Of a stretch of DNA of 64,000 nt, positions 58,964-62,459 are shown piece by piece. The stretch is taken from positions 27,463,068 through 27,527,067 of the forward strand of contig NC_090952.1 in the NCBI RefSeq assembly GCF_040807025.1, read 5' to 3'. Position 1 is the first letter of the stretch. The number at the start of each line of letters is the position of its first letter. The notes under the pieces were generated by a model, which saw nothing but the letters and a program-made list of their open reading frames with translations, did not search any database and had not been told where the DNA came from. Source of the DNA: Struthio camelus. Taxonomy: Eukaryota; Chordata; Aves; Struthioniformes; Struthionidae. The position numbers and the translations under genes are program-made.

Positions 58964-61900
58964 TTAGCAGGAGCAACCACTCTCCGTTACTGGTTGCTCA
59001 GGAGGTTTCTCTAGTTTGATGTCAATCACTGGAGGAGACAAGTTAAGGAAACCACCTGGTTCAAGGGAAAACAAGTAGAAAATAGAGGAAGTGATCAACT
59101 TAGCTTTTTTTGGGTGCCAAAGACAGACACAGCCTTCCTACAAAGAGGAGCCAGGCTGACAGCTTCCAATCAAAAAGCATACAGGCATTTGTATGCTATC
59201 CAAACACGACTTTAAATCCGGGCTTAAAAATTCTAGCCATAACATTTGGAAAAGCTGGCAGCACTAATTTCTTTAGGAGTGAGGCAGAACTGAAGGGTCA
59301 GCTACTTTCACCATTTCTGACACTGGCTGAACTGCCTTGAGCAGCACCTGTTCCTCCTGCTCCAGCCTTCAGGTTGGCATATTTTGCCAATTGTTAATTT
59401 AGAGCAAGCTGCACTTGGAAGTATGGATGCTACGGATTTTGTCTAGCCTTTTACACAGGCAGAATATGGCTAATTGCTAGCACAGGTCACCTGTATGCTC
59501 TATTACTCAATGCATGTAGCATGCAAGAACACTAACCACTGAATGTTCCTGCAATGACAGCTACTGTCAGAAGCCATGGATCCTGCTTCTTAGCCTGTTT
59601 AGAGTTGGTAAATAAAAATAAAATAACTGAAAAACAAATGTGGCATTTTGAAGCCATGCAAATTTTGTCCTTAAGGGGACAAGCTTAAGGGGAGAAAGCA
59701 AAACTTGCCCTCTGAGTTATAAATTGCAAGGGCACAAGTATGATCTTCAATTCATATCCACAAGTAAGCACCACACTGTACAAGCTGTTCCAGCCAAGTG
59801 TCTGCAAAACCCCAGTAAGGCCCACACCCACAACGTACCCAAAAAGTCAGCAAGACAGAAAGGTATTCACCAAATCCTACAAGGACAGGAAAGTTACTGA
59901 AAAGAAAGCAAGGATACTGTCTTCTTTGCTCTTCTCTGGTGTGCTGTCCATCCCAGGTAAAGCAGCAGCCACACGACGGAAAAGCTGAAAAGTAACAACA
60001 GGTAAACAGGAAGCTTGTCAGGAACAACGCATGTTAAAAAAATGGCTTCACAAGAGATCTTAGAGTCAGAATTTTACAGACTTGTTACATGAGCGTTTTA
60101 GCAAGCAAAGTAGTGATGAGCAAAAGCCATGAAATTCTACCCAAGATATTTGGGTAGATACCTGAGATATACCCAAGATACTCTACCCAAGTTTGATAAT
60201 AAATGATTAAGTTACCAAATGCCTACAAGACACTCAGTTTTATCTCTTTCTACTTGACTGAACATGGCATTTTTCTTTATTAACAACGGTTGTTCTAGGG
60301 ATACATAGAACAGTTCTCTCCCATGCTCAATAAGCATGTCAGAGGCTGCAATTCACCATTTCCAGCATCAACTCTATCTGCACACAGCGACATAACCTTG
60401 CACAACCCAGGAGTTCTGATAAACTTCTAGTCTGTTGCAAGGCTGCTTAAGACTAAGTTTAAGAATAACCTAGGTTTTTAAAGCCCTCCCTTAAAGTCCT
60501 GCTTCACAACAGTCATCTATAAGGAGAATGGCTGGTTCAAGCGAGCTGCATCTAAGCCACAGAAGATTTGCTAGAGCTAGGAAGGACTATCATATGACCA
60601 CAGAGAACACACAATGCTTTTGCATAATTTTTCTAGTCAATGCCTAGAGCTCCTCCTGCTGACACTAATGCAGCAGCGAACACAAATTAGAAAATGCTAG
60701 ACAAGTCTGGCGGACAGAGCTGTAGAAAGATGTATTTTTACTTGGAAGAACTAAAGGAAGGAGACTGAATAGTGTCAGCCAGTGATGGATCTTTCTCAAA
60801 GTACTTTGGCAGGGGCTTATCATCCGCCTCTCCAAATTGTATTACTCGGAAGAAAAAGAATCAAACCATCAAGGGACCACCAAGGCCCTGCAGTTAATGT
60901 CTTCCCTCAACACTTTTAGCCACAGAAGTTCTCACTACCAACACCTGCATGCCAAATAAAGTAACAGAAAGTTAGAACCAAAGATTAAACTGAATTATAT
61001 CCATAGAGGTTTAAAAATAACCTCCTCCCCCCACAACTAAACCTCCTAACCCCATTGTGATGGCCTCCTAACCAGCTGGTGTGCTTCAATCTGTTAAGTT
61101 CATGTGCCCACTGAGTGACTTCCTGATGCCAGAAGTACTAAAGTTTCCCTGTAAATCTTTGGGCCCTACAGCTGCCTTATTGCCCAAATTCTGTCACGCT
61201 TCAGAACAACGCTTTCTGAACTAGTGGGGAGTGGGATCACAAGCTCATAGCAAGAAGCAATGGGCACAAATTGAAATACGAGAAAGTGATCACCAATTTG
61301 AAATTTATGTTCTCCAGAGGTCCCTTCCAATCTCAACTATTCTATTGTTCTGTGGTTTTTGTCAGGCTTGAAAACAGAACCAGAAACTTCTACTCTGGTG
61401 CATCAGCATACGCTATTAGTCTGACTGCTGTCAACACCGATTTTAGAAAACACTGCATTAACTGTTAACAAAAGCAAAGGGAATGTACAGAATTATGCTT
61501 GACAGTGACATTCTTATCCCTCAGCAAAATCCATTTTTAGATTCCTTTCAGGGTAGGTTAAGTTTGCTTAGCTTTAACAAGGTACCACGGACTCGACAGG
61601 AAAGAAGCTTTCACTAGATAAAGCAGCAGCACTGGTCATTAGGCTGGAAGGATTTCAGGATCTGACAAAGACAACAGGTAAATATCTGGTGGAGCATGAA
61701 CTGTAAGCAAGAACTTAATCCTCCCCCTATACAGCCGTGAAGTACAGATTTACTGATTTTTTAGAGCATAACATAGGTCTACCTGTTTCACATTGTATCC
61801 AGTCTTTGCACTGGTCTCAATAAACATCACATTCAGCTCTTTGGCTCTCTGTTCACCTTCTTCTGTAGTGATTTGCCTAGACAAAGGTGCAAACAGAAGC

Positions 61901-62459
61901 AGAAAGACAGAAGGGAAGGACAGGAACAATTAGAGATATCTGTGACTGAGAGGCTTTTCAACAGAGGGCCTCTTCATCACCCGTTACAAGAGTGCATAAT
62001 CTACAAATGGAGACCTCAAGACCTCTGAGTTTTCAAGACCCACGGGTTCCTCATTAGGTTCCAGCTAGGGAGGAAACAAACTCAGGTAAGTAGTTCAGGG
62101 AACACCTGACCATTAATAAAGGATCATCAGCACAGGATGGAGTCTGTGCAGTATGCTTGAGTCTCATTCACAGCATCCTCAAGGGAAAAGAATCCCCATT
62201 AGCTGCACCTGATGCAAAAAAGCTGTTCCCCAAAGGTCAACGGGAAGGAACTCCATGAGATTACAGAAAGGCTCCAGCAGCAACTACAGTGCAGCAGCAA
62301 GTACTATGCTGCTGCTTGCGAGAGAGCACCTCCAAATTCATCTCTGATCAACACCCTGTACATACCTGTTTCACATTATATCCTGCTTTAGCACTGGTTT
62401 CAATATACATCATATTCAGTTCTTGGGCTTTTCTCTCACCCTCCTCTATAGAAACCTGT
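58964..62459 (-). CDS. RAB41: RAB6-like small GTPase, 3' exons (RAB41 position)
   Basis: RAB6-group GTPases control Golgi retrograde and secretory transport. Exons in gene order: 62459-62366 (alternative a), 61876-61783 (alternative b), 59984-59918 and 59028-58964. The translation carries the G5 motif ETSAKxGYNVKQ, then [20 protein letters not shown], then [13 protein letters not shown] and the double-geranylgeranyl end CSC. The last is very close to human RAB6A. Earlier exons (P-loop, switches, NKTD) lie right of the window. Position beside PDZD11 and KIF4A matches RAB41 on human Xq13, although human RAB41 itself is much more diverged. The two first exons are tandem duplicates of equal phase and only one can be used at a time. 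The last intron has U12-type signals. RAB6 family is certain; the RAB41 symbol is inferred from synteny. Confidence 0.9.
59029..59917 (-). other. U12-type intron in the RAB6-like gene
   Basis: The donor reads GTATCCTTG (minus strand, 59917-59909), matching the U12 donor consensus at eight of nine positions. TTCCTTAAC at 59050-59042 is a perfect U12 branch-point sequence, placed about 13 nt before the AG acceptor, with no long polypyrimidine tract needed. This marks a GT-AG minor-spliceosome intron. Confidence 0.85.
60139..60192 (+). repeat. Small direct/inverted repeat cluster
   Basis: 'tacccaagata' recurs three times in about 50 bases, once facing its own inverse (tacccaa-gatat-ttgggta). 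It lies in the RAB6-like intron 59985-61782, which otherwise shows a CR1 remnant and no exon. Confidence 0.6.
61246..61356 (+). repeat. CR1 LINE, internally deleted 3' fragment
   Basis: 'caagaagcaatgggcacaaa' followed by 'ttgaaatac' is a CR1 3' region block, followed by a jump to the terminal 'tctccagaggtcccttccaa' and 'attctattgttctgtgg'. The central part is missing. It is an old copy in a RAB6-like intron. Confidence 0.8.
61783..61876 (-). other. RAB6-like alternative exon b (RAB6B-type)
   Basis: 94 bp of the same phase as exon a, encoding [20 protein letters not shown] then [11 protein letters not shown]. It is flanked by GTCTAG and GTAGAC. It differs from exon a at 23 of 94 bases and 9 of 31 residues. 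From memory, 29 of 31 residues equal human RAB6B. If spliced after exon a, the frame meets TGA after seven codons. Confidence 0.85.
62366..62459 (-). other. RAB6-like alternative exon a (RAB6A-type)
   Basis: 94 bp, starting with one base of a split Arg codon, then 31 codons ([20 protein letters not shown], then [11 protein letters not shown]). It is flanked by CTGTAG and GTATGT. From memory, 28 of 31 residues equal human RAB6A. The acceptor has a strong polypyrimidine tract. Confidence 0.85.

Follow-up and report, generated by a model that had tools for sequence, protein, structure and literature searches.

A tandem pair of RAB6A-type and RAB6B-type exons in a probable RAB41 gene of Struthio camelus

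The 64,000-nucleotide stretch of Struthio camelus DNA analysed here (contig NC_090952.1, positions 27,463,068 to 27,527,067 of the forward strand; the window) contains, on its minus strand, part of a RAB6-subfamily gene that is best taken as RAB41, a third paralog beside RAB6A and RAB6B. This gene carries a switchable pair of exons 6, confirmed here as a feature of the sequence: one copy, 6a, is of RAB6A type and the other, 6b, of RAB6B type. Each transcript would be expected to take either 6a or 6b and thereby to swap the 31 residues that close the GTPase core, exchanging a RAB6A-like for a RAB6B-like block with the remainder of the protein constant. That block comprises helix 4, strand 6 and the G5 SAK loop of small GTPases. 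We consider it likely that the pair is an old tandem-exon switch that sauropsid RAB41 retains intact and that has been divided between RAB6A and RAB6B. The pair would then predate the split of RAB41 from RAB6B, with the a type kept only by RAB6A, the b type kept only by RAB6B, and both kept by RAB41.

The pair and its surroundings are laid out as follows (nt, nucleotides; a slash marks a splice junction).

Pyrimidine tract preceding 6a: 62460..62560, minus strand; AG-free for 97 nt, with 11 PTB-like words and a candidate branch A at -65
Exon 6a: 62366..62459, minus strand; RAB6A-type (SAKAG), 94 nt, completes the split codon AG/A
Intron between 6a and 6b: 61877..62365, minus strand; 489 nt, with a candidate branch A at -53 before 6b
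Exon 6b: 61783..61876, minus strand; RAB6B-type (SAKTG), 94 nt, completes the split codon AG/G
Exon 7: 59918..59984, minus strand; shared by the isoforms, with a weak donor, GTATCC
Last exon, coding part: 58964..59028, minus strand; prenylation-type CSC end

Exons 6a and 6b are adjacent homologues of the same length and phase with intact splice sites, that is, a tandem pair. Both have open frames between GT-AG sites, complete a split arginine codon at their start and end in phase 0, and neither shows a stop, a frameshift or the loss of a splice dinucleotide. Their acceptors read TGTAG/A for 6a and TCTAG/G for 6b, and their donors CAG/GTATGT for 6a and the weaker CAG/GTAGAC for 6b. Splicing 6b after 6a yields ANHYRRR followed by a stop at codon 8, and skipping both exons leads to read-through of exon 7 up to a stop where exons 7 and 8 join. 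Because either error shifts the frame to stops, such products would be removed or inactive. An earlier, sequence-only reading of this stretch had described two 94-bp exons of the same phase with open frames, separated by a 489-bp intron, and a stop within eight codons when both are joined; its coordinates and frame logic are correct. It had also held that exclusive use is forced by the reading frame. Wrong combinations do run into stops, but the frame alone does not enforce exclusive splicing; it penalises wrong combinations. As a separate observation, the intron that separates exon 7 from 6b holds a CR1-like 3' end at 61317-61354 (motif matches with 1 and 3 mismatches); the window has 3 matches to such motifs where 0.67 are expected, and 2 where 0.48 are expected.

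The protein encoded by each exon points to a different relative. Of the 31 residues, 3 in exon 6a depart from human RAB6A and 2 in exon 6b depart from human RAB6B; the two exons differ from each other at nine residues, SAKA/SAKT among them. The best PDB matches of both are RAB6 chains, which places the gene in the RAB6 subfamily. For 6a, human 6A-type RAB6 chains are closest (1yzq at 48.6 bits and 2gil at 48.1, against 38.9 for Rab6B); for 6b, Rab6B comes first (49.6 bits), followed by Drosophila Rab6 (46.9) and then by 6A-type chains (at most 45.0). The ranking and the residue counts agree with the types assigned earlier from the letters alone. A human RAB6A protein used as a query matches 6a at E 1.5e-14 and 6b at E 8.4e-13, far beyond chance in both cases.

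In this assembly RAB6A and RAB6B are separate genes, lying on contigs C1 and C9, and within the stretches analysed each has only one exon 6: that of RAB6A is a-type with the split codon AG/A, and that of RAB6B is b-type with AG/G. These stretches cover the introns on either side of exon 6 in both genes, with RAB6A exon 1 and RAB6B exons 1-2 lying outside them. This distribution fits the earlier proposal of an ancestral gene with both exons, each kept by one paralog. Protein trees support the same relationships. Among 15 topologies evaluated under three models for 6a, 6b, human RAB6A, human RAB6B and Drosophila Rab6, the three best all pair 6b with RAB6B, and the three in which a and b are sisters are rejected (approximately unbiased test, AU, at most 0.0024; Shimodaira-Hasegawa test, SH, at most 0.03). 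With the same-genome genes, the three best topologies again pair 6b with RAB6B and the a+b arrangement is rejected at AU ~2.5e-5. Site patterns in exon 6 run 10:3:2 in favour of (a,RAB6A)(b,RAB6B) (p 0.009). The remaining protein (exons 3, 5, 7 and 8) is like RAB6A at 89/97 positions vs 84/97 for RAB6B. Since the rest of the protein is closer to RAB6A, the RAB6B likeness of 6b is specific to that exon.

Both exons 6 evolve under constraint. They are separated by 12.5 synonymous and 9.5 amino-acid changes, a deficit of the latter with a binomial p of 0.0003. The synonymous distance (dS) is 1.87 and the amino-acid-changing distance (dN) 0.14, giving a dN/dS of 0.074 that is only rough because dS is near saturation, a point that counts against our interpretation. 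Measured against the same-genome genes, dN is 0.048 for 6a vs RAB6A and 0.027 for 6b vs RAB6B. The introns flanking 6a and 6b retain 38-42% ungapped identity and their alignment is lost; since they can no longer be aligned, the exon 6 duplication is old.

How might the choice between the two exons be made? It would probably depend on the strong donor of 6a and its long acceptor tract, PTB-like and repressible, set against a weak donor at 6b, with the decay of misspliced products and the frame acting as a possible back-up to regulated choice. Donor scores, computed with assumed frequencies, are 9.64 for 6a, 4.95 for 6b and -1.31 for exon 7, whose very weak donor (ACA/GTATCC at 59912-59918, minus strand) nevertheless belongs to an exon that joins in frame. 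The 101 nt before 6a contain 11 PTB-like words and the equal stretch before 6b contains 6, against a background of 2.2 per 100 nt. The AG-free zone is 97 nt long and U-rich before 6a, and 61 nt long before 6b; among 463 background AGs with at least 14 pyrimidines in the preceding 20 nt, 1.1% reach the length of the 6a zone and 5.0% that of the 6b zone. A close branch point that would sterically prevent joint use was considered and rejected: the sole candidate branch point of 6b lies ~436 nt away from the donor of 6a, and a steric block is therefore not expected within this intron. Exon 6 choice may operate as a tissue switch. Rab6b is described as preferentially expressed in brain and as binding less GTP than Rab6a (PMC3735572), RAB41 as found in human cones (PMC7145626), and trout Rab6a as being spliced in a brain-specific manner at an exon that is not stated (PMC8321248). 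From these reports we would guess that b is a neural form, with 6b used in neurons or photoreceptors. The trout report and a similar one on reef-fish Rab6a are not counted as evidence, since neither names the exon in its accessible text. The swap itself may affect nucleotide handling or helix-4 contacts.

Several further results weigh against an old, regulated switch. Some protein topologies pairing 6b with Drosophila Rab6 instead of RAB6B are 12-14 log-likelihood units (lnL) worse, with AU p up to 0.11, and are unrejected. The DNA-only tree of exon 6 favours the same answer as the proteins by only 3.9 lnL and leaves a+b at AU 0.20, and synonymous-only patterns in exon 6 run 4:3:2 (p 0.35); the weakness of these patterns implies that the tree signal lies mainly in the amino acids. 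At the protein level, the idea of the sequence-only reading withstands the exon tree that it had proposed as a check, a and b being rejected as sisters; DNA alone does not reject them. No convincing relic of a lost exon was detected in RAB6A introns 5-6 or RAB6B introns 3-6 (14 tests); relic scores were 8.5-15 vs 60-66 for intact copies, and for RAB6A intron 5 against 6b, 1/60 shuffles scored as high. Pairing between introns is no stronger than in shuffled sequences: with 60 mononucleotide shuffles for each pair, the fractions as strong were 0.73, 0.10 and 0.37. The RBFOX hexamer TGCATG is absent from the four stretches scanned, with two GCATG in the intron after 6b. Finally, the 6b donor is weak, and 6a has three unusual core changes (K>Q, V>M, F>Y) at positions otherwise identical among five compared sequences; taken together, these features mean that one copy could be little used.

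Some of these results suit other explanations. The permissive DNA tree, the synonymous patterns and the lack of relics in RAB6A and RAB6B would all follow if the pair arose by a local duplication in RAB41 only and selection for a shared function then drove 6b to converge on the residues of RAB6B. Such convergence would require five identical residues unlike those of Drosophila Rab6, as well as the split-codon base, to arise twice, and both protein data sets reject the a+b topologies. We therefore regard a local duplication as improbable. The grouping of 6b with RAB6B in a gene otherwise closer to RAB6A is also what would be seen had 6b been copied from RAB6B into RAB41 after their split, by interlocus gene conversion or by insertion of a genomic piece. 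This would call for exact placement and phase; moreover, 6b and RAB6B are separated by 12 synonymous changes (dS 1.4), so that any transfer would have to be ancient. We judge this scenario very unlikely.

The three altered positions in 6a and the gap between the two donor scores could instead mean that one exon, more plausibly 6a, or 6b in view of its donor, is an unused and slowly decaying copy. Against this, both exons are intact, as described above, and their divergence is mostly synonymous over a near-saturated distance; we regard decay of either copy as improbable. An old switch divided between RAB6A and RAB6B remains the reading that we favour.

Exon 6 is not the only switchable position in this gene, which extends from C11:27538499, C11 denoting the contig of the window, down into the window. 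A second pair lies upstream.

Exon 4A: C11:27532529-27532634, outside the window; 106 nt, reads IRLQ...FCSLIPSYIRDSAVAVIVFDIT
Exon 4B: C11:27528559-27528664, outside the window; 106 nt, reads VRLQ...DSTIAVVVYDIT

This exon 4 pair is of the RAB6A'/RAB6A type, with the I/V and A/T differences, and a like pair in the same order is carried by RAB6A of the same genome. Exon 4A has changes of its own: R>C in switch II (GQERFCSL), Y>F and V>I. The exon 4 and exon 6 pairs are both 1 mod 3. All four exon-4 by exon-6 combinations yield uninterrupted proteins of 211 amino acids with the CSC end, and including 4A with 4B, or neither, leads to stops. The best tree of exon 4 DNA pairs 4A with A' of RAB6A, with which 4A has the donor GTAGGTAT in common, but all 15 topologies fall within 3.2 lnL and the site patterns run 5:3:3. 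The sequence-only reading had presented exon 6 as a second switch, separate from that of RAB6A/RAB6A'. The exon is indeed a different one, with the correction that this gene has a RAB6A/A'-type pair as well.

These results lead us to lean, with less assurance than for the exon 6 pair, toward a broader scheme. The RAB6 gene that preceded the vertebrate genome duplications may have been combinatorial, with two switch clusters, at exon 4 and exon 6, and four isoforms. RAB6B would be the frozen 4B/6b form, RAB6A would have kept the exon-4 switch alone, and sauropsid RAB41 would hold all four exons. On this scheme, RAB41 would be an ancient vertebrate paralog and not a novelty of primates and dolphins.

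The identity of the host gene follows from its neighbourhood, where the order ARR3 - host gene - STARD10-like - PDZD11 - KIF4A was found.

PDZD11 exons: 47692..49482, plus strand; neighbour that identifies the locus, with five matches to the human protein (62-87% identity)
KIF4A exons (part): 30504..35253, minus strand; neighbour that identifies the locus, with eight matches to a stretch of KIF4A
KIF21A-like domain: 38228-38653; further up from the KIF4A exons
STARD10-like exon: 55171..55530, minus strand; between PDZD11 and RAB41, matching PDB 6ser at E 4e-20

These neighbours all lie downstream of the host gene. The PDZD11 region matches PDB 1wi2, which we take to be PDZD11. Upstream of the host gene, and on the same strand, arrestin exons give 12 matches with E of 1 or less, including 9 below 0.001, to an ARR3 sequence, the one arrestin against which the assignment was made. 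The human order is, as we assume, ARR3-RAB41-PDZD11-KIF4A at Xq13.1, the same neighbours as those of the host gene, and this agreement is why the host is taken as the RAB41 ortholog. PDZD11 is placed at Xq13.1 in human (PMC8176286). The earlier description of the host as RAB6-like thus stands at the level of the subfamily and is corrected to the third paralog. RAB6A itself was rejected as the host, since that gene lies on contig C1, where its last exon matches the human RAB6A end. Human STARD10 presumably lies near RAB6A at 11q13.4; if so, the STARD10-like gene beside RAB41 may be its ohnolog.

Elsewhere in the window, positions 12376-15084 (minus strand) hold a G protein-coupled receptor of the motilin/ghrelin receptor group, near a TAF9-type gene; its piece at 14299-15084 matches the motilin receptor (E 9e-49) and GHSR (E 7.5e-47). 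Rfam returned 0 matches within the window at the gathering threshold. Outside it, contigs C40 and C41 show the same Ras-family matches with identical scores and a near-constant offset of 19.1-19.5 megabases (five pairs among the matches listed), and are possibly little-diverged sex chromosomes or two haplotypes.

It is useful to compare the exon 6 pair with known systems. Like exon 4 of RAB6A/RAB6A', reportedly the subject of Echard 2000, it consists of tandem, same-phase, 1-mod-3 exons that swap few residues, those of RAB6A being 106 nt each in this genome. Unlike it, the pair concerns G5, whereas the RAB6A/A' segment runs from switch II to strand 4. The spacing of the exon 4 copies also differs, at ~65 nt in RAB6A vs ~3.9 kb in RAB41. 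Abascal 2015 reportedly follows what becomes of homologous exons once their gene has duplicated. The pair further resembles human tandem duplicated exon substitution, in which homologous exons are ancient and mutually exclusive, and some duplicated exon pairs are older than the gene duplications of vertebrates and are still found in paralogs (PMC9741552, PMC4465641). The main texts of these two surveys and of a third human exon survey name no RAB6 gene (PMC9741552, PMC4465641, PMC5740500). OGDH exons 4a/4b likewise combine duplicated exons with a long pyrimidine tract; their exclusivity comes from branch points 25-41 nt off the donor, unlike the candidate at ~436 nt in RAB41 (PMC7969005). The accessible literature that we searched contains no description of an exon 6 pair in RAB41.

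The human RAB41 protein is, on our assumption, more diverged and reads SAKTG only. Human RAB41 (RAB6D) is assigned to the RAB6 subfamily with 64% identity to human Rab6b (PMC3735572), and a Rab survey treats Rab41 as late-arising and confined to primates and dolphins (PMC3425129). A RAB41 locus in Struthio camelus would make the gene older than that survey states, and the reported age would need revision. More broadly, what sets RAB6A and RAB6B apart includes a block the size of one exon at the guanine-binding loop, and the effect of this block on nucleotide handling or partners would be testable within one protein background. Both versions adjoin in RAB41, which would make it a concrete case of splice forms of one gene becoming separate genes. 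Overall, our analysis suggests that a single ancestral gene produced the two forms before the genes descended from it became specialised.

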